Below are positions 36,912-47,819 of a stretch of DNA of 64,000 nucleotides, in pieces; position 1 is the stretch's first letter; the number at the start of each line of letters is the position of its first letter. This DNA comes from Brevibacterium sp. UMB1308A (GTDB taxonomy: Bacteria; Actinomycetota; Actinomycetes; Actinomycetales; Brevibacteriaceae). Made by a program: the position numbers and the translations under genes. The notes below the pieces were generated by a model. It searched no databases, had not been told where the DNA came from, and was given only the letters and a program-made list of their open reading frames with translations. The stretch lies in NCBI RefSeq assembly GCF_030230605.1, contig NZ_JASPDO010000011.1:1-64000 (forward strand). Direction: 5' to 3'.

Positions 36912-37901
36912 TTAGGCGCGTGGGTGGGCCTGCGTGTAGGAATCTTTAAGTTTGCCCAGGCTCACGTGCGTGTATATCTGGGTTGAGCTCAGGGTGGCGT
37001 GGCCCAGGAACTCTTGCACTTGGCGGATGTCGGCCCCGTTTTCAACCATGTGGGTGGCAGCCGAGTGGCGTAGACCGTGGGGCGAGATTTCCGGTGAGTT
37101 GGCTCGTTTGGCCGTCGCCTTGTGGACCACATCGCGTACTTGGCGCTGGTTGATTCTGCCACCTCGGACGCCTACAAACAGGGCTTCTTGACCTTCACTG
37201 GCCAGGTGGTTTCTGACTTCTAACCATTCGGTGAGGGCTCGTTGCGAGGGGCCACCGAATGGGATTCGGCGTTGTTTGTTTCCTTTTCCTAGAACCGTGA
37301 TGAGTCCGGCGGTCCAGTCGACGTCGGTGGTGTCGAGATTGACGAGTTCGGATACGCGCATGCCGGTGGCGTACAGCAGTTCGACGAGTGCGATGTCGCG
37401 TGTACGTGTAGCGCGTTGGGTCTTGTTGAGGTTCGCGTCGTCGGCGGGTGGCTCAAAAGGTTGTGTGAGCACGTCTTCTGTGTGGGACTGCTGTAAAACG
37501 GTGGGCAGGCGGGTGGCTTTTTTGGGCGTGGATAGTCTGCTGGCCGGGTTGGTGGCGGTGATGCCGGCCCGGGTGGTGAAGGTGAAGAACGACCGGATAC
37601 CGGCGATGCGACGGGCGAGGGTTCCGGACGAGGCACCTTGAGCAGATAGGTGTAGGAGCCACTGGCGGAGGTTGCCGATTTCAACGTCGGCCAAAGGGAT
37701 GGGGTCACCGTTGCCGTCGTGGGTGAGGAATTGCATGAGGTTGGTGGCGTCGGCGATGTAGTTGCGCACGGTGTGTTCCGATGCGTTCTTGTGTACCGTC
37801 AGTTCGTTGTGAAAGCGGTCGAGTGCGTCGAGGTATTCGGCACTCAACCGGTCATGCTGAGGTTCGCCAGTTGCGTTGGCGTTGTGGGGGGAAGTCGCCA
37901 T
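36912..37901 (-). CDS. xerC: Tyrosine site-specific recombinase XerC
   Basis: 329 residues. The catalytic set is complete: Arg182 (GMRVSEL), Lys207 (LGKGNKQ), His275 and Arg278 (HGLRHSAATH), His301 (LGHATL) and Tyr310 (QIYTH). The N-terminal SAM-like core-binding domain is at about 20-125. It should resolve chromosome dimers at dif together with XerD. Its place beside rpsB and, further on, dprA is the chromosomal xerC location of Actinobacteria, so it is a core gene and not the integrase of the adjacent island. Confidence 0.95.
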   Translation of the reverse strand: MATSPHNANATGEPQHDRLSAEYLDALDRFHNELTVHKNASEHTVRNYIADATNLMQFLTHDGNGDPIPLADVEIGNLRQWLLHLSAQGASSGTLARRIAGIRSFFTFTTRAGITATNPASRLSTPKKATRLPTVLQQSHTEDVLTQPFEPPADDANLNKTQRATRTRDIALVELLYATGMRVSELVNLDTTDVDWTAGLITVLGKGNKQRRIPFGGPSQRALTEWLEVRNHLASEGQEALFVGVRGGRINQRQVRDVVHKATAKRANSPEISPHGLRHSAATHMVENGADIRQVQEFLGHATLSSTQIYTHVSLGKLKDSYTQAHPRA

Positions 37902-37949: not shown

Positions 37950-39125
37950 TTATGGCAGTACCTTCTGACTTTGAAGGGTCTGTACGGTTCGAGAAATGTT
38001 TTGGCCGGAAAGGATGACGTATGCATGTCTGTCCGCTGAGCACGTGATGGGACCACGGTCACCTGCGGCTTTCATGATCCCTGCATCTTTTACATCCTCA
38101 TGTTGGCGAACGCAGGCTAACCACTGTTCGTCGGTATGTGGGCACTCACTCAGGTCCGGGAAGAATACGGCTGACTGTTCGCCACGCGGCGCATCGTTTG
38201 GCAATCGCTGGTGCTGGTAAGCGCTGAACAGTATGTTGAATGCTGTTGCTCCGACGCTCCACTCCATGAGGTCAGCAATATGATCTCCCCCAACGCGTCC
38301 ATGTGCTTCGATCAAACGGGGCTGACCATCTTCCAGTATGAATTCGATGTGTGAGAGCCCGAACTGATAGTTGGCAGAATCGAGGACGGTTCGTGTAGCA
38401 TCGAACAAGCGATCACGCGACTCTTCAGAAATACGAGCTGGCTGATGATGTCCAGTCTCAACGAGACCAGTTATTCCGCCAGTTACTTTCTCGGTCACGA
38501 CCAGCGGGCTATGTTGGCCTGCCCACGAAATAGTTTCGACTGAAAACTCCGGCCCGACAAACCGTTGTTCGACTAGGTATTGACCGGGCTCAACCGCCAG
38601 GTCTTGGAGTTCTACTTCTGAAACGACGCTACGGACATCTCGACTACCAGAACCCGAGTTGGGTTTAAGGACGAGGCCGTGCTGTGTCTGTCGGAAAAAA
38701 TCCTGAAGTCTGGAGTCTGTGCCTGTTGTCAGGTCGAGCATCGAATGCAGCCCGTTTATAGGTGACCGCTCGGGAAGAGCTTCGCGTAGCCGATGCTTAT
38801 CGCGCATAATTTCAAGACTTGTAAACGAAGCAAACTTTCCTTCTGCAAGCCCCAATGCACTGTTTATAAGTGCGGCTACTTGAGACGTGTCGTCACCTAG
38901 GCCAACACACAGTGCATCACCCTGCTCACCTTTTGCACTAATGAAAGGTTCGAGCGCCCTAACCACGCTGAGGGCGTCGAGAGGGTCATGTACCTCGACT
39001 GTTTCGCCGTCGAAGTTTTCGAGCGATGACAAAAACTGAGCGTTCGCGACAGGAACAATCTCCGCACCAGCATTGTGGGCAGCATCAATCACTTCCTGGC
39101 GCGGAGTGAGAGTATAGAAATTCAT
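37950..39125 (-). CDS. ATP-grasp ligase (first island copy)
   Basis: 391 residues with an N-terminal pre-ATP-grasp domain (1-~100), the MRDKHRL turn (about 108-114), the glycine loop LKPNSGSGS (about 153-161), Glu187 (VEQRF), and metal ligands in HIEF (Glu261) and LIEAHGRVGGD (Glu273), where His275 stands in place of the usual Asn. This is the carboxylate-amine ligase type that forms peptide or amide bonds through an acyl phosphate, as in BacD-like L-amino-acid ligases. ATG overlaps the MFS stop (ATGA), so it is the last gene of a three-gene operon. Substrates are unknown. Confidence 0.85.
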   Translation of the reverse strand: MNFYTLTPRQEVIDAAHNAGAEIVPVANAQFLSSLENFDGETVEVHDPLDALSVVRALEPFISAKGEQGDALCVGLGDDTSQVAALINSALGLAEGKFASFTSLEIMRDKHRLREALPERSPINGLHSMLDLTTGTDSRLQDFFRQTQHGLVLKPNSGSGSRDVRSVVSEVELQDLAVEPGQYLVEQRFVGPEFSVETISWAGQHSPLVVTEKVTGGITGLVETGHHQPARISEESRDRLFDATRTVLDSANYQFGLSHIEFILEDGQPRLIEAHGRVGGDHIADLMEWSVGATAFNILFSAYQHQRLPNDAPRGEQSAVFFPDLSECPHTDEQWLACVRQHEDVKDAGIMKAAGDRGPITCSADRHAYVILSGQNISRTVQTLQSQKVLP

Positions 39126-40321
39126 GATCCAGCCTTTCGACGTGAAAGAACAACTGCTCCGGTAAAGCCCAATACAGCTAAAGGGACCGCCAAATACATC
39201 ACTGACGCAGGAGAATCGAAGTGTTCGATCAAAGCACCGCCTGCGCTCGCACCTATGAGTGATGACACGCCTGCTGCGGTGGCTGTGGCTCCGTAGGCAC
39301 GTGTCAAACCAGTTCCTTCTCTACGGAGCTGAGCTGTGACTTCGTCCAGTGTGGGACTCACAAGAAGTTCAGCCAGACTAAAGAGTGTTGCAAAGAGGAT
39401 CACTGTCGCTGGCCCCGCTGGAATTGGTAGAACCAGAAAGCTTCCGACGAACAACAGAAACCCGATGGCCAAAACATAAGAAGATCGAACGGGTTTGAGG
39501 AGTTTCACTAACAGTGGGTATTGCAGAACAAGGATGAGAATCGCGTTTCCGGTATACACCCATGGAGATCCAAGTGGCGTGCCAAAGCCACTTTCCGCAT
39601 AGAGTGGCACGACGAGTGGCCACTGAGAATAAATCCCCCAGTACGCCAGTGTGCATCCAATCAAAACGAAAAACAGTCGGTCAAGCCGACGCCTGTCGCT
39701 TCGCATGCGAGTTTTCGTGTCTTGGCCGCTTTCTTCCGGTGGTTTGAACTTCACAAACAGTAAACCCAAACCAAGCAACACATATGAAGTAACAACCGAC
39801 AAAACAATGACGGAGAACGAGGCAACCACAAAAACGACGCCGCCGATCGACGGCCCTACGAGCGCGCCAAGGTTAACGGCGATAGATCGCATTGTGATCG
39901 TTCGGCGGTCAGACGAAGCCCTCATGAGTTCAGTTTTCAATGCGAGAGCTGTCGAAGAACTCCCAAGGCTTGCAACAACGGCGCCAACCGCGTACGTCAG
40001 TACGTTGCTGTCAAACGCAAAAACGAGGAGGCCCACGCTGCGAAGAGCCAAACCACCTATTGCCAGTGTTCTCGATCCTAATCTGGCGTTGACTGCCCCT
40101 ATCAGTCCAGAGAGAATTTGCCCGGTGCCTGAGAGAAGGCCAAGAATCAATCCAGTAGCGCCAGCACCAACACCACGATCGATGAGTTCAAGAGTGATCA
40201 GCGGGTAGAACATGAATGTCGTGATCCCGCTGATCACAATTGCAACGAGAAACACCCAGGTGGATGATGTCGCTGCATCAACTGATTCTATTGAACCATT
40301 TTTGGAAGGGTCAGGCATCAT
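39122..40321 (-). CDS. MFS transporter of ATP-grasp operon
   Basis: 399 residues with about 12 membrane helices in two halves joined by a charged loop (KFKPPEESGQDTKTRMRSDRRRLDR, split here around residue 205). It is flanked on both sides by ATP-grasp ligases with 4-base overlaps at each junction, so all three are translated as a unit. By comparison with BacE in bacilysin operons, I infer export of the ligase product and perhaps self-protection. No substrate motif supports this directly. Confidence 0.85.
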   Translation of the reverse strand: MMPDPSKNGSIESVDAATSSTWVFLVAIVISGITTFMFYPLITLELIDRGVGAGATGLILGLLSGTGQILSGLIGAVNARLGSRTLAIGGLALRSVGLLVFAFDSNVLTYAVGAVVASLGSSSTALALKTELMRASSDRRTITMRSIAVNLGALVGPSIGGVVFVVASFSVIVLSVVTSYVLLGLGLLFVKFKPPEESGQDTKTRMRSDRRRLDRLFFVLIGCTLAYWGIYSQWPLVVPLYAESGFGTPLGSPWVYTGNAILILVLQYPLLVKLLKPVRSSYVLAIGFLLFVGSFLVLPIPAGPATVILFATLFSLAELLVSPTLDEVTAQLRREGTGLTRAYGATATAAGVSSLIGASAGGALIEHFDSPASVMYLAVPLAVLGFTGAVVLSRRKAGS

Positions 40322-41454
40322 TGGACATCCACCGTTAGCGCTTGCGAGGCCGCAAGAGCTCTGTCTTGCGCCAGGGCAGGAGTTGCTGCTGTGGCGTACA
40401 CGTTTCCGATGCGCGCCTTGTACGACGTGGTGTCCGTGATGTGGTCACCTATCGACTTTGACGGAATCCACCCGGGCTGCCCCGGATAAAACCGCAGATT
40501 ATCAAGCCTCTCTATACCGCGAAGTTGGCCAGTTTGAGTGGAATAGATGCTCACATGACTATGGCCTGCACAAACTTCACGGATCTCAGGGAGGTGAGGT
40601 TCCATGTTGAGGGCATCAGCGACAGCCAGAGCGTACGGGTCAAAGTTGGTGCATGTGTCAATTGCAGGTGTGATCAAAGCGCCGGGCATCCGCGCGTTAA
40701 GTTCGACCAGCGCAAACCCGGTGGCAGTCTCAATGAACTCTACGTGTGCGAACCCAACGTCGTACTGTAGCTTCGCAAGGAGGCTCTTCCCCCATTGTTC
40801 GACCTCAGCTTCCCACGGTGTCCCATACTCGTGGGGAAAGGTTTTGACGTTTTCGAGAAAGACTGGTGGGGCCGTCAAAATTCGGTTTGTGATGCCGAAG
40901 AAAACAGTGGAGTTGCCGTTTGACCAGAACTCGGCCGAATACAGCGGTCCACGATAGTAGGGTTCGGTTACGAAAGCGTCCTGGTCTCCCGCAGAAGCGC
41001 GAAGTTCTTCCAGTTCGTGCTCGGTGTGAACAAGGTCAATGCCGAGTGATCCAGTTCCATTACGTGGCTTGACTATTTTAGGAAAATCACTGACAGGCGT
41101 GGCGGAATACGCGGAGAGTTCCCGTTGCACCCACTCCTTGTCACGGAAATTCTTGAGACGAGAGCTTGAAAATCGACGTGGAAAATCAAACTCTTCACGT
41201 AACTCAGCCGCAATCACACCCCATGTGTCAGTAGAGCTAAAAACGGCACCTATGTTATTTCGCTCGGCTCTAATGTATGCGCGCAATTGTTCGTGATCGT
41301 TTGTGGGGAATGTGAGTACGTCAGCACCTTCTGTATCAGAATAAATCGAAGGGTCCGAGGCAAGAAGCCTGAGTTTGTAACCACGTTTCTGCGCGTGCTC
41401 CGCCATCCTGTTGACGCCGAGGGTCATCGCCTCCACAGCTAAAAGTGTCTTCAA
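40318..41454 (-). CDS. ATP-grasp ligase (second island copy, operon lead gene)
   Basis: 378 residues from TTG 41454, which has AAGGGGG eight bases upstream; the frame is open to 41556 without a better site. FRDKEWVQREL (about 103-113), the glycine loop VKPRNGTGSLG (128-138), Glu164 (VTEPYY), Glu239 (HVEFIE) and the metal set Glu251/Asn253/Arg255 (VELNARMPG) are all present, so it looks fully active. It resembles carbamoyl-phosphate/PylC-like amino-acid ligases. As the first gene of the operon it probably makes the first bond; the other ligase may add a second residue. The product is unknown. Confidence 0.85.
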   Translation of the reverse strand: MKTLLAVEAMTLGVNRMAEHAQKRGYKLRLLASDPSIYSDTEGADVLTFPTNDHEQLRAYIRAERNNIGAVFSSTDTWGVIAAELREEFDFPRRFSSSRLKNFRDKEWVQRELSAYSATPVSDFPKIVKPRNGTGSLGIDLVHTEHELEELRASAGDQDAFVTEPYYRGPLYSAEFWSNGNSTVFFGITNRILTAPPVFLENVKTFPHEYGTPWEAEVEQWGKSLLAKLQYDVGFAHVEFIETATGFALVELNARMPGALITPAIDTCTNFDPYALAVADALNMEPHLPEIREVCAGHSHVSIYSTQTGQLRGIERLDNLRFYPGQPGWIPSKSIGDHITDTTSYKARIGNVYATAATPALAQDRALAASQALTVDVQ

Positions 41455-41455
41455 C

Positions 41456-41578
41456 TCTGGCGCCCCCTTTGCACTACCGCCTCGGTCCAGCAGGAACTCC
41501 CACCTGTTTGAATCATTAACTACGGGTGACAGGCTAGCACGGAAGAGCACGATCAAACCGCCGTCTTTCTGGCGCCCC
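41456..41578. repeat. 11-bp direct repeat flanking the ATP-grasp operon leader
   Basis: TCTGGCGCCCC occurs at 41456-41466, just upstream of the operon start codon, and again at 41568-41578, ending in the stop codon of the first orphan dprA tail. The 100-odd bases between hold the operon's promoter and leader, in which I see no gene. A similar GGCGCC lies next to the stop of intact dprA (46639). Confidence 0.55.
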
Positions 41579-41760
41579 TAACCACTCTTCTTCCACCCGC
41601 GGGTGTCCTTTGCAGGTCGGTCTTTCATCATGTGCACACCAACTACCGACCGTGCTTCGTTGACCGTCACGCCAGCTTTGCTGGCCACCGAATCCAAACC
41701 CGCGCCCCTCACAGTGGGATTTCCCAGGACCTAGATCGCGGATCCCAGCTCATGCCCACG
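41578..41760 (-). pseudogene. Orphan copy A of the dprA 3' end joined to an abiEii 3' remnant
   Basis: Bases 41578-41718 repeat the last ~140 bases of dprA (encoding TVRGAGLDSVASKAG...GWKKSG and a stop), differing at several positions. Immediately beyond (41709-41760) the minus strand still reads SWDPRSRSWEIPL and stop, the C-terminus of an AbiEii-like protein, identical in structure to the junction at 45053. So this is what is left of an earlier abiE cassette plus dprA tail. Confidence 0.85.
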
Positions 41761-42027
41761 CCCCGCTGCACGGTCGAGGCGATGCGCGGGGTATGAGTGA
41801 AGACATGCTAACCTCCGGCGTATGCCGCTCAACGATAAACGAACTCGCCGACCTCACTTTCGCTTCTGACAAGACACTGGTGTTCTGAGCCGTCAAGCAC
41901 CACACCGCCCCGGGACGAAACGTCACTGACCTCGAATCGCTAATTCAGCTTGCAGAGACATTCCGACTTGCGTCGGCACCAACTGGACTTTGCACCCACG
42001 CTCGTCACTCACCACGAAAGATACCGA
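41761..42027. other. Degenerate spacer before the second MFS gene
   Basis: No gene can be supported. A short open frame at 41807-41890 (MLTSGVCRSTINELADL...) could be a remnant. Just before 42028 GAAAG gives a weak ribosome site for the MFS gene. Confidence 0.4.
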
Positions 42028-43287
42028 ATGAATACCGGTTCTAAACTCCACGCACCGATTAGTGAACACGAACGTGCCCGCGTGCACAAACGCACGCTCA
42101 CAGTTGTGATCCTGAGCCAGATCCTTGGGGGTGCTGGCCTGGCTGCCGGGATCGCTGTAGGAGCGCTGCTTGCGCAAGACATGCTCGGCTCCGATGCTCT
42201 CTCCGGCTTGCCGACTGGCCTATTCACGCTTGGCTCGGCCCTCGCCGCCTACCTTGTGGGCCGCTCCACACAGCGATTCGGTCGCCGCATGGGCTTGGCC
42301 TGCGGGTTCATCACCGGTGGGATCGGCGCTCTCGGCGTCGTGATCGCCGCAATCGCAGACAACGCTCCACTGTTGTTCGTTGCTTTGTTCGTCTACGGCT
42401 CAGGCACTGCGACGAACCTGCAAGCCCGCTATGCTGGCACAGACCTGGCACTGCCCAGCAGGCGCGGGTTCGGAGCGAGCATGGCGATGGTCGCCACCAC
42501 GATCGGTGCCGTCGCAGGCCCCAACCTCATCGAGCCAATGGGCGTTTTCGCTGACGCGATAGGCGTGCCAACTCTGGCGGGTCCGTTCATCCTGGCAGCG
42601 GTTGCCTATACCGTGGCTGGTCTCTTCCTGTTCGCATTCCTCCGCCCCGACCCCTACCTGCTTGCACGAGACATAGCCCAACACGAAACAACCCAAGTCG
42701 CCCAGAGTGATCAGGCCACGACACTACCGAAAGTCGGGGTGAGCGCATACGTCGGCGCGACGGTAATGGTGCTCACGCAGATCGTCATGATCGCGATCAT
42801 GTCGATGACTCCGGTACACATGAGAGCCCACAACTACGGAATGGACGCGATTGGTCTCGTGATCGGACTCCATATCGGAGCGATGTGGCTACCCTCACTA
42901 TTCACCGGCACCCTCGTCGACAAACTTGGTCGCACCCCAATGGTGATCGCGTCCGGAGTCACACTGTTGCTCGCCGGGCTCTTGGCAGCACTTGCTCCTG
43001 CCGATTCTCTCGGACTGCTAATCCTTGCGCTCGTACTGCTCGGCCTCGGATGGAACTTTGGCCTAATCGCAGGCACAGCGCTCGTGGTCGATGCAACAGT
43101 GCCGCAGAACCGACCTAAGACACAGGGCACCATCGATGTGCTCATCGCGCTCGCCGGCGCCGCCGGCGGGGTGGCATCCGGGGCCGTCTTGCACGCCACG
43201 AGCTACCAGGTGCTGTCCATTGGCGGCGGCACCCTCGTTACCCTCCTAATCTCCGTTCTCTTCTGGGCACGGAACGAACAGCGCTGA
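42028..43287 (+). CDS. MFS transporter
   Basis: 419 residues with 12 predicted membrane helices and the MFS loop motif GRSTQRFGRRMG between helices 2 and 3. A second related loop, VDKLGRTPMV, follows helix 8. It is a drug/proton-antiporter-like permease, substrate unknown. It lies inside the island, between two orphan dprA tails, on the opposite strand to the ATP-grasp operon. The start ATG 42028 fits homologues; the frame is open upstream to 41950. Confidence 0.85.
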   Translation: MNTGSKLHAPISEHERARVHKRTLTVVILSQILGGAGLAAGIAVGALLAQDMLGSDALSGLPTGLFTLGSALAAYLVGRSTQRFGRRMGLACGFITGGIGALGVVIAAIADNAPLLFVALFVYGSGTATNLQARYAGTDLALPSRRGFGASMAMVATTIGAVAGPNLIEPMGVFADAIGVPTLAGPFILAAVAYTVAGLFLFAFLRPDPYLLARDIAQHETTQVAQSDQATTLPKVGVSAYVGATVMVLTQIVMIAIMSMTPVHMRAHNYGMDAIGLVIGLHIGAMWLPSLFTGTLVDKLGRTPMVIASGVTLLLAGLLAALAPADSLGLLILALVLLGLGWNFGLIAGTALVVDATVPQNRPKTQGTIDVLIALAGAAGGVASGAVLHATSYQVLSIGGGTLVTLLISVLFWARNEQR

Positions 43288-44055: not shown

Positions 44056-44817
44056 ATGCACCACATGAATGACCTAGACCCTCTAATTGTTAGCCTCACT
44101 GGATCGGTTACACTCTCTGCTCCGATCGTGTCTGCAATCGAGTCAGGCGAGTTGGAACCAGAAGGAGCGTTCGCACGTTTTTCTGGCACGTGTCACGCCT
44201 TGGCTCCGCAGTGGTTTGATTCAAACCAGCTTCAGGCGCATGAAGCGTTTTGGTGCTTCGATGATGGTGCACAAATCGACCAGACAATCAGCGGTGAACT
44301 GGCCTGGTTCCAAACAGGCGTTTACACCTCATCGGTCGCACTGCAATCCGTCCCTCTACTGGTCCATGCTGCAGGAGAGGCTGTCAAACAGCTAGGCACT
44401 TCCAGCTTCGACAGCATCCGCGTTCAAGTGCCACATGCGAGAGGCGGCTTTGGTGAGGAAGCAATCCAGCAGCTCGTGGACCAGTTTTCAGCGCTAGCCA
44501 ATGTGCGGTCTGCTGTTGAAGTACATGCGCAATTACTGTGCCGAAGGCACCACAAACGGTGGACCTCAGAAGCTACGACATGGTTCGACAGTACCTACCT
44601 GGTGCCACTAGCCTTGCAAAACTTAGAAATGGCGCAGGACCGTGTGAATCTTGACAACCGGTGGGCGCTCCGACAAGCGCAAAGCTTGTGTACTGCAGTA
44701 TTTTCTGCTCCTGAATGGTCTTTATCACTGGCATCAACAATTGCTGTGCTCATGGTCGAAGCAACACGCGCAACTTGCACCAATGGCACTGTAATTGTGG
44801 AAGTCAAACGCGGATGA
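44056..44817 (+). CDS. Unrecognised protein in the accessory island
   Basis: 253 residues, or 250 if it starts at ATG 44065; neither has a good ribosome site. I do not recognise the family. No membrane helix or signal is evident. Its features are a Trp-rich middle (APQWFDS, EAFWCFDD, LAWFQTG), a single RRHHKRW basic cluster near residue 163-170, and a C-terminus ending VIVEVKRG. The frame is clean through 760 bases and codon use looks like real coding sequence. It lies between an abiE remnant and an orphan dprA tail, on the strand opposite to the intact abiE pair. Confidence 0.6.
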   Translation: MHHMNDLDPLIVSLTGSVTLSAPIVSAIESGELEPEGAFARFSGTCHALAPQWFDSNQLQAHEAFWCFDDGAQIDQTISGELAWFQTGVYTSSVALQSVPLLVHAAGEAVKQLGTSSFDSIRVQVPHARGGFGEEAIQQLVDQFSALANVRSAVEVHAQLLCRRHHKRWTSEATTWFDSTYLVPLALQNLEMAQDRVNLDNRWALRQAQSLCTAVFSAPEWSLSLASTIAVLMVEATRATCTNGTVIVEVKRG

Positions 44818-44921
44818 TACGAGTTACTGCGTCGATGCGCTCTTGATGGTTTGTTGCCAACCGACTGCGGGGTACGACGCGCTGTCATGATGCCGCTCTC
44901 ACCACGCACAGAACAGAGCCT

Positions 44922-45062
44922 CTAACCAGTCTTCTTCCACCCGTGGGTGTCCTTTGCAGCTCGGCCTTTCATCATGAGCACACCAACCACCGACCGTGCT
45001 TCGTTGACCGTCACCCCAGCTTTGCTGGCCACCGAATCCAAACCCGCGCCCCTCACAGTGGG
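44922..45062 (-). repeat. Orphan copy B of the dprA 3' end
   Basis: 141 bases encoding the same final DprA residues (TVRGAGLDSVASKAG...HGWKKTG, stop at 44922). It is closer to copy A (41578) than to intact dprA (46644). The 3' end of abiEii reads into it, its stop codon (45053-45055) lying inside the repeat. Upstream frames read IRRTRAGPQSNG..., the abiEii sequence in another frame. Confidence 0.92.
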
Positions 45063-45955
45063 ATTTCCCAGGACCGCGACCGCGGATCCCAGGTCGTGCC
45101 CGTTGCTCTGCGGTCCAGCACGGGTTCGGCGTATGCGAGGCACTCGGCGAGGAGGTCGGCGAAATGCTCTGGCGTAGTGGCTGCAAGGCGCTGTTTACGC
45201 CGCCAGTTCTGCCACCTCCGCTCGGCCAGGTCGGGCATGGTCTCCAGTAGCGGTCGCATTGAGTCCAACTGCGTGTGGCGGTGGTCTGCGACGGCTTCGA
45301 GAGCGGCGCGTTGGTCGGCGTAGGTGATGCGGCGTGTGCCGACAATCCAAGCAATGTCGACGAAGTCGCGCCAGCGGGTGTTCACCTCGCCGCGCTCGAG
45401 AGCGGTGACGATCTTCTCTGCAAGAACCATGTGGTCGGGGTACCCGCGCAAGCGGAGCGTTCCACCAAGTAAGCATGGCAGTTCCTGCTCGACCGGTGCG
45501 GGCCAGATCGGATCGCCAAAGTTAACGTCAACGTGCAAAGCAATACGTGCGGTGGCCAGACGAACGTTGAGTTTGACACGGACGCCGGTATAGACCGCGT
45601 CATCACGGATCGACTCACCGGAGACAGAGCCGAGTTCGAAGACCAAGCCGTCATCGGGTTGTTGAACGATGATCTCCCGGACACGAGCCTCAACGTCGAG
45701 GATGTAGTTGGGGAACCCGGTGGCGGCGAGGTCGATGTCTCGGGTGGGTCGGCGCGCGGCGAACGCAGCCATGAGCACGCCACCTTTGAGAACGAAGTCG
45801 TTCGAAACCTTTGAAGCAACCAGGCGGACGAGGAATCCTTCGAGGGCGTACAGGGTGAAGTACTCTGCCGGATCGCGACGGTGGGCGCGGGCGATGTTGC
45901 GCAAGTCGTTATACACCTGACCGGCGCGGGTGTTACGGTTCGGCGCCGGAGTCAC
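45053..45955 (-). CDS. abiEii: AbiEii-type nucleotidyltransferase toxin
   Basis: 300 residues from GTG 45955, which overlaps the abiEi stop (GTGA). The nucleotidyltransferase motif is intact: LKGGVLMAAFAARRPTRDIDL with Gly58-Gly59, Asp73 and Asp75. AbiEii/MenT-type toxins transfer nucleotides to RNA (tRNA or other acceptors) and give phage abortive infection in a type IV or II-like system with AbiEi. The last codons (PL, stop) come from the dprA tail copy, showing that the gene was joined to it. Also possible is a stand-alone nucleotidyltransferase, but the partner makes AbiE most likely. Confidence 0.9.
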   Translation of the reverse strand: MTPAPNRNTRAGQVYNDLRNIARAHRRDPAEYFTLYALEGFLVRLVASKVSNDFVLKGGVLMAAFAARRPTRDIDLAATGFPNYILDVEARVREIIVQQPDDGLVFELGSVSGESIRDDAVYTGVRVKLNVRLATARIALHVDVNFGDPIWPAPVEQELPCLLGGTLRLRGYPDHMVLAEKIVTALERGEVNTRWRDFVDIAWIVGTRRITYADQRAALEAVADHRHTQLDSMRPLLETMPDLAERRWQNWRRKQRLAATTPEHFADLLAECLAYAEPVLDRRATGTTWDPRSRSWEIPL

Positions 45956-46530
45956 AGCAGCACCTCCAACGCCAGGCGCAGCCTCGGCTTCGCCTTGGGG
46001 AAGGCATCGGCCATGCGCAGCAACCTCGCCGGCGTTGACCCGGTGCGGGGCAACCACCGCCGGAGTGCATCGTAGGCAGTCTCGCTGCCCTCGTGATGCA
46101 TGAGTCGGAAACAGTCGATGATGGTCCGCTCGGGCGAGTAGATCGCCATCGTCACACCCGGAGCAACACGGTGTGTTTCACGTCCGAGGGTGAAGGTGTC
46201 GGGGGCGAAGCTGTGCCATGTCACGTGGTCGAACCCGGCCGGATGCCTGGTTCCGCGAGGTAAGGCGATGTCGGTGTCGAACGGGATAACGTCGGTGAGG
46301 TCATGATGCGCGAGCGCGCTAGTCAGACACATTGTCGCCTCCGATCGCACAGCGGTCGCGGAGGCGAGAGAAACAAAGCGCTCATCAAGCATGCCGGGGT
46401 ACAGATACACGCCACGTCCCACACGCTCGATCTCCTCAGCCGCGAGCAGGTCGTATACCTCGTCCTTGCGCAGTCCCGCCATACGTGCCTGTTCGAGTGT
46501 GAACACCGGCGCCAGGTTAATAGTCGTCAC
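45952..46530 (-). CDS. abiEi: AbiEi-type antitoxin / transcriptional repressor
   Basis: 192 residues from GTG 46530, seven bases after GGAGGT; an upstream GTG at 46539 is possible. N-terminal winged helix (FTLEQARMAGLRKDEVYDLLAAEEIERVGRGVYLYPG) and a C-terminal antitoxin domain with IYSPERTIIDCFRLMHHEGSETAYDALRRW. AbiEi proteins neutralise AbiEii and repress their own promoter at inverted repeats. A dyad lies directly upstream. The order antitoxin then toxin with a 4-base overlap is standard. Confidence 0.9.
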   Translation of the reverse strand: MTTINLAPVFTLEQARMAGLRKDEVYDLLAAEEIERVGRGVYLYPGMLDERFVSLASATAVRSEATMCLTSALAHHDLTDVIPFDTDIALPRGTRHPAGFDHVTWHSFAPDTFTLGRETHRVAPGVTMAIYSPERTIIDCFRLMHHEGSETAYDALRRWLPRTGSTPARLLRMADAFPKAKPRLRLALEVLL

Positions 46531-46543
46531 GTCGGTCACCTCC

Positions 46544-46572: not shown

Positions 46573-46643
46573 AACAGTTAGAAACAAAAGAGGGTGACGG
46601 TAACTCGCAACACCACCCGGAATCATCAAGCGTTACGGCGCCT

Positions 46644-46784
46644 CTAGCTGCTCTTCTTCCAGCCGCGAGCATCTTTAGCCGCTCGTCCTTTCATCATGAG
46701 CACACCAACCACCGACCGTGCTTCGTTCACCGTCACCCCAGCTTTGCTGGCCACCGAATCCAAACCTGCACCCCGCACCGTGGG
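46644..46784 (-). repeat. Parent copy C of the dprA 3'-end repeat
   Basis: The final 141 bases of intact dprA; the two orphan copies at 41578-41718 and 44922-45062 are collinear without gaps. Just past the stop codon the three copies still share a GCC-T/C before CTA (GGCGCCT, AGAGCCT, GGCGCCC), so the homologous block reaches slightly beyond the gene. Confidence 0.92.
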
Positions 46785-47819
46785 CAACGCGGCGAACACC
46801 CGCAACTCACGCTCATCCAAATCATCCGTGATCCTCAACTCCGCCTGCGTTGCATACGAATCCCCCTCACGCACCGCGTCCAAACCACCGACAAGCTCTT
46901 TGACCTCCTCGGTCGACGTCACCACAACCGCCGCCCCATCACGCAACAGCCGGTGACAACCACTCGACTGAGGATCAGTCACCCGCCCCGGAACAGCCCC
47001 CACCGGGCGCCCCAACTCGGCCGCCCGATGCGCCGTATTGATCGCACCCGACCTAAACCCCGCCTGCACCACCACAGTCGCACCAGACAACGCAGCAATC
47101 AGCCGATTCCTCGCAAGAAACCTGTGCCTCATCGCAGTTGCACCAGGCGGGCACTCCGACACAATTAACCCCGCGTCAGCAACAGCGCGCAACAAATCAA
47201 CATTGCCCTTGGGATACAACGAATCCACTCCCCCAGCCATAAACGCCACTGTCGCTGGCCCATTCGCACCTCGCATCGCACCCTCGTGTGCCGCCGAGTC
47301 AATCCCGTACGCCCCACCAGACACAACCGTGACCCCATCCCGGGCCAACTCAAACCCCAACGACCTCGCCACACTCACCCCGTAGTCAGACGGCGCCCGC
47401 GCCCCCACAAGCGCAATCGCTTTCGACGCCATCACCTTCAACGACCCAGCACCGCGCACCCACACACCCAACGGACGCTCATCACCCAGATCATCCAACG
47501 CAGGCGCCCACTCGTTGCCACCTCGGACAATGAGCCTGCACCCCAGCTTGCCCATCACCCGCACATCCCTTGTAGCATCCAGCATGTTCACCCGCGCAGA
47601 CCACCGCTCAACAGCCGTCGCAAAATCAGCCGAGGAAACCTCGACACCGGCATCGTGCAAGGCCCTCACCACCCGGGACTCAGCGACCTCGCCCCGCACG
47701 CACGCCAACACCTGTTCAGGCCCCACCACGTCCACGCACACGCTCAACAACCGGTCCCCCGGTTCAGACAGACGCATGACATCGGCCATCGCCAAAACCA
47801 CATCATCCACAACGCTCAC
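46644..47819 (-). CDS. dprA: DNA-processing protein DprA
   Basis: 391 residues. Loads RecA on incoming single-stranded DNA in natural transformation. It has the N-terminal SAM-like part, the Rossmann-fold core with LVGARAPSDYGVSVA and the hallmark SGGAYGIDSAAHEGAM, and a C-terminal winged-helix region (VRGAGLDSVASKAGVTVNEARSVVG, shown in part). That last ~45-residue segment is the piece duplicated at 41578 and 44922. GTG start overlaps the comM stop. The 3' end is the insertion point of the island. Confidence 0.95.
   Translation of the reverse strand: MSVVDDVVLAMADVMRLSEPGDRLLSVCVDVVGPEQVLACVRGEVAESRVVRALHDAGVEVSSADFATAVERWSARVNMLDATRDVRVMGKLGCRLIVRGGNEWAPALDDLGDERPLGVWVRGAGSLKVMASKAIALVGARAPSDYGVSVARSLGFELARDGVTVVSGGAYGIDSAAHEGAMRGANGPATVAFMAGGVDSLYPKGNVDLLRAVADAGLIVSECPPGATAMRHRFLARNRLIAALSGATVVVQAGFRSGAINTAHRAAELGRPVGAVPGRVTDPQSSGCHRLLRDGAAVVVTSTEEVKELVGGLDAVREGDSYATQAELRITDDLDERELRVFAALPTVRGAGLDSVASKAGVTVNEARSVVGVLMMKGRAAKDARGWKKSS

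Follow-up and report, generated by a model that had tools for sequence, protein, structure and literature searches.

The window analysed here, a stretch of 64,000 nucleotides from contig NZ_JASPDO010000011.1 of Brevibacterium sp. UMB1308A, carries on its minus strand an operon of three genes in the order ligB, MFS, ligA, which code for two ATP-grasp ligases and, between them, a transporter of the major facilitator superfamily (MFS). We consider it rather likely that this operon is the retained, shortened and still working core of a peptide pathway independent of nonribosomal peptide synthetases. The two ligases and the pump form a real, maintained unit, which probably makes and exports a small peptide. 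The gene order, the protein families, their conservation, the selection acting on the genes and the presence of a longer form in relatives were observed directly.

The ligB-MFS-ligA operon

The gene ligB (40318..41454, minus strand, TTG start) codes for a ligase of the L-amino-acid ligase (LAL) type with 378 aa, the middle gene (39122..40321, minus strand) for a presumed exporter of 399 aa assigned to MFS_1 by Pfam, and ligA (37950..39125, minus strand) for a second LAL-type ATP-grasp ligase of 391 aa, with His275 in its metal motif. The three open reading frames (ORFs) are intact, and the MFS gene shares a 4-base overlap, ATGA, with each of its neighbours. An earlier reading made from the DNA letters alone (the sequence-only reading) had described three same-strand genes with ATGA overlaps at both junctions, and two different ATP-grasp ligases flanking an MFS gene; the ORFs 37950-39125, 39122-40321 and 40318-41454 and the Pfam assignments (ATP-grasp_4/_3 for the ligases, MFS_1 for the transporter) bear out both statements. 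Its remark that nothing else belongs to the operon holds in the window and fails for the long form of other genomes, which has six genes. We think it unlikely that ligB is the longer ORF (40318-41556) with its TTG start at 41556, since the aligned homologs mostly start close to 41454; P0035 and P0061, called from further upstream, are the exceptions. A crude hydropathy scan of the MFS protein gave merged, overlapping segments in which the 12 helices counted by the sequence-only reading could not be told apart.

Relationship of LigA and LigB to L-amino-acid ligases

LigB matched ATP-grasp_4/_3 in Pfam and also LAL_C2, the latter above its cut-off (46.9 bits versus 29.4). In profile searches the L-amino-acid ligase BL00235 (3vot) was the top solved match of both enzymes, at 7.2e-16 for LigA and 1.5e-12 for LigB, followed for LigB by the L-amino-acid ligase 30vh and 4dim. 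The AlphaFold models of the two ligases, with mean pLDDT (predicted local distance difference test) values of 92.0 and 91.7, both gave 3vot as the first Foldseek match in the PDB, with a TMq of 0.75-0.77 for LigA and 0.83-0.84 for LigB, and RizA came fifth by fold for LigA and fourth for LigB. Further down the fold rankings came 4dim, acyl-CoA and biotin carboxylases, and the folds of PurK and PurT, which is normal among members of a single superfamily. The single LigB sequence gave no PDB match at E <= 0.1, and weak carbamoyl-phosphate-synthase-like matches were seen for LigB (5.4e-4) and for LigA (to 2pn1, 8.7e-6). By the Pfam, NCBIfam and PDB searches, both ligases fall in the ATP-grasp superfamily near the L-amino-acid ligases, and the kinship to these enzymes proposed by the sequence-only reading was supported, BL00235 being the best match of both proteins by profile and by fold.

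Other identities were tried and rejected. A housekeeping ligase such as PurK or CarB was discarded because L-amino-acid ligases came first in the profile and fold searches of both proteins; PRK02186 ('argininosuccinate lyase'), for which the cut-off is 625 bits, scored only 103.6 and 106.8, PylC was far under its cut-off, and an anti-phage role of the ligases was dropped, as there was no PADLOC match. A best match to a housekeeping enzyme and a lack of conserved neighbourhood, named in advance as findings that would speak against a peptide pathway, were both looked for, and neither was found.

The metal motif of LigA reads EAHGR. His275, which the sequence-only reading had noted in place of Asn, is real and is invariant, together with E261, E273 and R277, across the 20 aligned LigA sequences (the window and 19 of 34 homologs; P0001, P0003, P0004, P0008, the fragments P0015 and P0025 and the distant P0026-P0034 were left out). 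The LigB counterpart, Asn253, is invariant with E239 and R255 across 31 aligned sequences (the window and 30 of 32 homologs, leaving out the fragments P0037 and P0064), in which E251 is conserved in at least 90%. We rejected His275 as a sign of inactivity: it is invariant in LigA, and the change from Asn to His alone is not a mark of inactivity because BL00235 has Gly and BacD has Ala at the aligned position.

Occurrence of the operon and its six-gene form

Close relatives number 25 for LigA (P0001-P0025, 38-93% identity) and 32 for LigB (43-98% identity). The LigA length of 391 aa is kept in P0001-P0004, which are 87-93% identical. Seven of the 25 LigA rows pair with a LigB row by equal size of the longest contig (7068, 14079, 14937, 34129, 37856, 1706657 and 2236339), which implies, without showing, that both genes lie on the same contig; Sphingomonas, Qipengyuania, Allorhizobium and Corynebacterium are the genera named among these rows. 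The neighbourhood survey found the same three genes together in other genomes, so that the proposal of two ligases and an MFS protein as a conserved unit stood, and the ligB-MFS-ligA unit recurs in Actinomycetota and Alphaproteobacteria. The ligase family is rare among the sampled genomes, in counts that take in genomes already known to carry LigA: a LigA match at E <= 1e-3 was present in 1 of 57 Brevibacterium genomes and 1 of 99 of all those searched, and a match at 1e-40 in 7 of 394 genomes of the class (one close, six at 3e-44 to 8e-41). At 1e-60, one of 396 genomes in the order of the Sphingomonas and two of 245 in the family of Curtobacterium S6 were positive.

Outside Brevibacterium, the gene context of close relatives of both ligases was readable in three genomes, and in all three the core is the middle of a six-gene operon: GHMP kinase, SbnA-like pyridoxal-phosphate (PLP) enzyme, LigB, MFS, LigA and GshB-like ATP-grasp. 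The six genes stand in this order in Curtobacterium S6 (loci L004/L034), in genome G898 (locus L060) and in Sphingomonas Leaf242, where they are distributed over both ends (L032 and L033) of a contig of 34,129 bases; as ligB itself is split between these ends, the contig is probably circular. The suggestion that the three genes by themselves make up a minimal pathway was not supported, since they are the core of the six-gene operon in 3/3 other readable genomes. The two extra upstream genes of the long form are probably precursor-making.

The search with the GshB-like protein gave 36 matches at E <= 1e-30, of which no given organism name is Brevibacterium or Corynebacterium, most matches carrying no name. 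Eight of their contig sizes equal those of LigA rows (2740, 3292, 7068, 34129, 37856, 43671, 718624 and 1706657), and the Qipengyuania tags LCM19_02190 (LigA) and LCM19_02195 (GshB) look adjacent. More distant Streptomyces loci vary in their layout. In six Streptomyces-like LigA relatives from the class survey (G122, G188, G201, G240, G393 and G424, loci L042-L047; 141-242 bits to the LigA profile) there was no GHMP, MFS or GshB match over 40 bits, and PLP reached about 50 bits in two. A S. globosus plasmid carries PLP, ATP-grasp, MFS, LigA-like and glutathione synthase genes, with no GHMP match in the stretch; S. xanthii has a PLP gene, two ATP-grasps and an MFS gene, with an ATP-grasp and a GshB-like gene about 9 kb further; and S. 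clavifer has GHMP, PLP, LigB-like and MFS genes plus a methyltransferase. The ligase that handles the PLP-derived amino acid of the long form is probably LigB, since a PLP gene adjoins the gene of a LigB-like ligase in S. clavifer, NBC_00648, NBC_01591 and S. xanthii.

Solitary relatives of LigB occur in Arcanobacterium and Actinomycetaceae metagenome-assembled genomes and in Mobiluncus porci. These genomes, for which completeness was not given, have no MFS relative beside LigB, no GHMP or GshB match genome-wide and PLP matches of just 24-27%, and their sole LigA match is, by coordinates, LigB itself. LigB may thus be able to exist without precursor genes.

The short form in Brevibacterium

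The nearest comparison genome, B. mcbrellneri ATCC 49030 (33% of sampled 31-letter words in common, 99% complete), has the core alone, with no GHMP match, no GshB match and a PLP match of just 27%. In the 64-kb window, likewise, neither GHMP nor PLP was matched at E <= 1. GshB gave two short matches there (0.26 and 0.56), away from the operon, which were rejected as remnants and judged to be chance.

Between the window and B. mcbrellneri, dN/dS (the ratio of nonsynonymous to synonymous substitution rates) is 0.171 for ligA, 0.114 for the MFS gene and 0.098 for ligB, values that rest on few substitutions (25 to 51 changed sites per core gene). Four neighbouring genes gave 0.118 (xerC), 0.167 (NAD-binding), 0.076 (M23/VanY) and 0.102 (rpsB). 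The core is under purifying selection, like its neighbours.

In a LigA tree of 29 rows, which left out P0015, P0025 and P0026-P0034, the six-row clade of the window lies inside an 11-row clade (97/99 support) with Curtobacterium S6 and P0006. P0008, a shorter protein of 343 aa named B. aurantiacum, groups with P0006 and not with the window. Short and long form require at least 3 changes over the 17 labelled rows, 12 of the 29 rows being without label; the short-form labels of P0001, P0002 and two Corynebacterium rows are soft, based just on there being no GshB match of equal contig size.

Comparison with known systems

BL00235 (for both enzymes), BacD (YwfE, for LigA) and RizA resemble the ligases in profile or fold rank as L-amino-acid ligases, at 14-19% identity over the fold alignments; here, unlike in those cases, a pair of ligases is coupled with a single transporter, and the long form adds another ATP-grasp, its third. 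The bacilysin cluster comprises one ATP-grasp ligase, an MFS exporter and the genes making anticapsin. The operon shares with it the ATP-grasp ligase accompanied by an MFS exporter and differs in having two ligases, and no anticapsin-making genes were found among the proteins scanned beside the operon (the rest of the genome was not searched for them).

The PLP enzyme of the long form is like SbnA, TIGR03945 being its top NCBIfam match at 128.7 bits and SbnA 5d87 being matched at 4.5e-14. The score is, however, far under the cut-off of 349.95, and cystathionine beta-synthases came first in the PDB sequence search (1.8e-21). In contrast to 2,3-diaminopropionate synthesis by SbnA, there is no SbnB-like partner among the six operon genes, and a GHMP kinase gene precedes the PLP gene. 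Naming the substrate of this kinase was tried and dropped, since NCBIfam assigned it to no family and its best PDB match (E 0.029) is to an unrelated protein.

Phosphonoalamide synthesis offers a precedent for the proposed pathway: as described, its ATP-grasp enzyme PnaC makes dipeptides and the tripeptide ligase PnaB joins them to a special amino acid (PMC11867202). Two distinct ATP-grasp ligases are thus common to both systems, a likeness drawn from that pathway description and not from the PnaB/PnaC sequences. The special amino acid there is phosphonoalanine, obtained by transamination (PMC11867202), whereas here a GHMP kinase and an SbnA-like enzyme take this place, or none in Brevibacterium.

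Three plasmid loci (L049, L050 and L051) carry an iron-type ABC importer, DUF364, MFS, GHMP kinase and PLP enzyme and may be a metallophore system; no paper on such a DUF364 system was among the best matches from the open-licence literature. Curtobacterium S6 has, besides its six-gene operon, a second PLP gene and a weak GHMP match near a DUF364 gene (L031:6897-11118).

The island between dprA and xerC

The operon lies in an island flanked by xerC (36912..37901, minus strand) and dprA (46644..47819, minus strand), as the sequence-only reading had placed it. The flank survey searched 21 genomes of the genus, 10 of which, including B. mcbrellneri, had a xerC match at E <= 1e-80. The island is absent from 8 of the 9 other Brevibacterium loci, where dprA is next to xerC; the remaining one shows no dprA in the flank. 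A repeat unit of 184 bases, which holds the dprA 3' end, is present in three copies, all on the minus strand: at 41574..41757, upstream of ligB; at 44918..45101, overlapping the abiEii end and 93% identical to the first copy; and at 46640..46823, at the 3' end of the intact dprA and 72% identical to the first copy over the whole length. Similar stretches exist in B. mcbrellneri. Such a set of repeats would be left behind if DNA had inserted more than once at the 3' end of dprA, as though AbiE, a second MFS gene and the ligase operon had been added there stepwise. No integrase was found among the island proteins scanned with Pfam.

The same island holds an AbiEi/AbiEii toxin-antitoxin pair (45053-46539), a second MFS gene on the plus strand (41950-43287) with no detectable similarity to the operon MFS, and an ORF of 253 aa (44056-44817) with no Pfam, NCBIfam or PADLOC match. 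In B. mcbrellneri an abiEii frame, shorter and with a different end, lies just upstream of ligB.

Proposed pathway and alternative explanations

We infer the reactions, their order, the direction of transport, the product and the use of ordinary amino acids as follows. LigB and LigA would each use ATP to convert a carboxylate into an acyl phosphate and then couple the activated group to an amine; the resulting di- or tripeptide would be exported by the MFS protein. The peptide might serve in antagonism, signalling or metal binding, the first two roles having been put forward by the sequence-only reading. In the long form, the GHMP kinase and the SbnA-like PLP enzyme would supply a special amino acid and the GshB-like ATP-grasp would add a further residue; the short form of Brevibacterium would use either ordinary amino acids or a building block that comes from another source.

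Several points weigh against a working peptide pathway. LAL_C2 is under its cut-off in LigA, which matches ATP-grasp_4/_3 (20.0 bits for LAL_C2), and identity to 3vot over the fold alignments is just 17-19%. In the LigA profile ranking 4dim, titled phosphoribosylglycinamide synthetase (2.5e-14), stands between BL00235 and BacD, and it is third by fold. For LigB, BacD is absent from the profile matches and from the best 50 fold matches, and an acyl-CoA carboxylase is third by fold. More distant Streptomyces relatives show other layouts. The B. mcbrellneri short form may do something else, given its absent GHMP and GshB matches and its distant PLP match; and, for UMB1308A, precursor genes could lie in the genome outside the 64-kb window.

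A different function is suggested by the surroundings of the PLP enzyme, whose relatives (47-55% identical) in SGAir0924, S. melanogenes and Tsukamurella have genes for iron-type ABC importers, DUF364 and MFS proteins as neighbours. In NBC_00648 an importer precedes the PLP and LigB-like ligase genes, a ferric-reductase-like gene and a (2Fe-2S)-binding protein are near the S. clavifer locus, and the DUF364 gene of Curtobacterium S6 is near its second PLP gene. The product could then be a metal-binding peptide or an aminopolycarboxylate, the system serving metal uptake rather than antagonism. We regard this as unlikely: the annotation of the stretches from SGAir0924, S. melanogenes and Tsukamurella contains no ligase, no importer or DUF364 was recognised beside the six-gene operons (flanking ORFs judged by eye, not profile-scanned) or among the island proteins scanned in the window, and B. 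mcbrellneri lacks a GHMP match and has only the 27% PLP match.

With three of the six long-form genes missing, the Brevibacterium operon might also be a leftover that makes nothing any more. This is improbable in view of the three intact ORFs, the dN/dS of 0.10-0.17 and the LigA length unchanged in P0001-P0004, which are 87-93% identical. The operon is, moreover, short, consists of modifying enzymes plus a transporter and sits in an accessory island with an AbiE module next door, so it could be a resistance device against a toxic amino-acid-like compound of external origin, which the ligases would conjugate and the MFS protein would pump out. This seems to us very improbable, since in relatives the same genes are coupled to apparent precursor-making genes, which argues for synthesis.

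Beyond the shortened core in Brevibacterium, we tentatively propose a family of small-peptide natural products, independent of nonribosomal peptide synthetases, whose synthesis takes a GHMP kinase, an SbnA-like synthase and three ATP-grasp ligases and whose exporter is an MFS pump. Small replicons and islands may carry this system between Actinomycetota and Alphaproteobacteria, and it may have been reduced on more than one occasion to a core with two ligases, which would make a peptide alone in Brevibacterium and perhaps Corynebacterium. No description of the operon or pathway was found among the best matches from the open-licence literature. Peptides from stand-alone ATP-grasp ligases are easily overlooked in genomes, and a conserved six-gene cassette with its natural three-gene reduction offers a compact, testable pathway, in which comparison of the long and short forms would reveal how the two ligases act when a dedicated special amino acid is supplied and when it is not.

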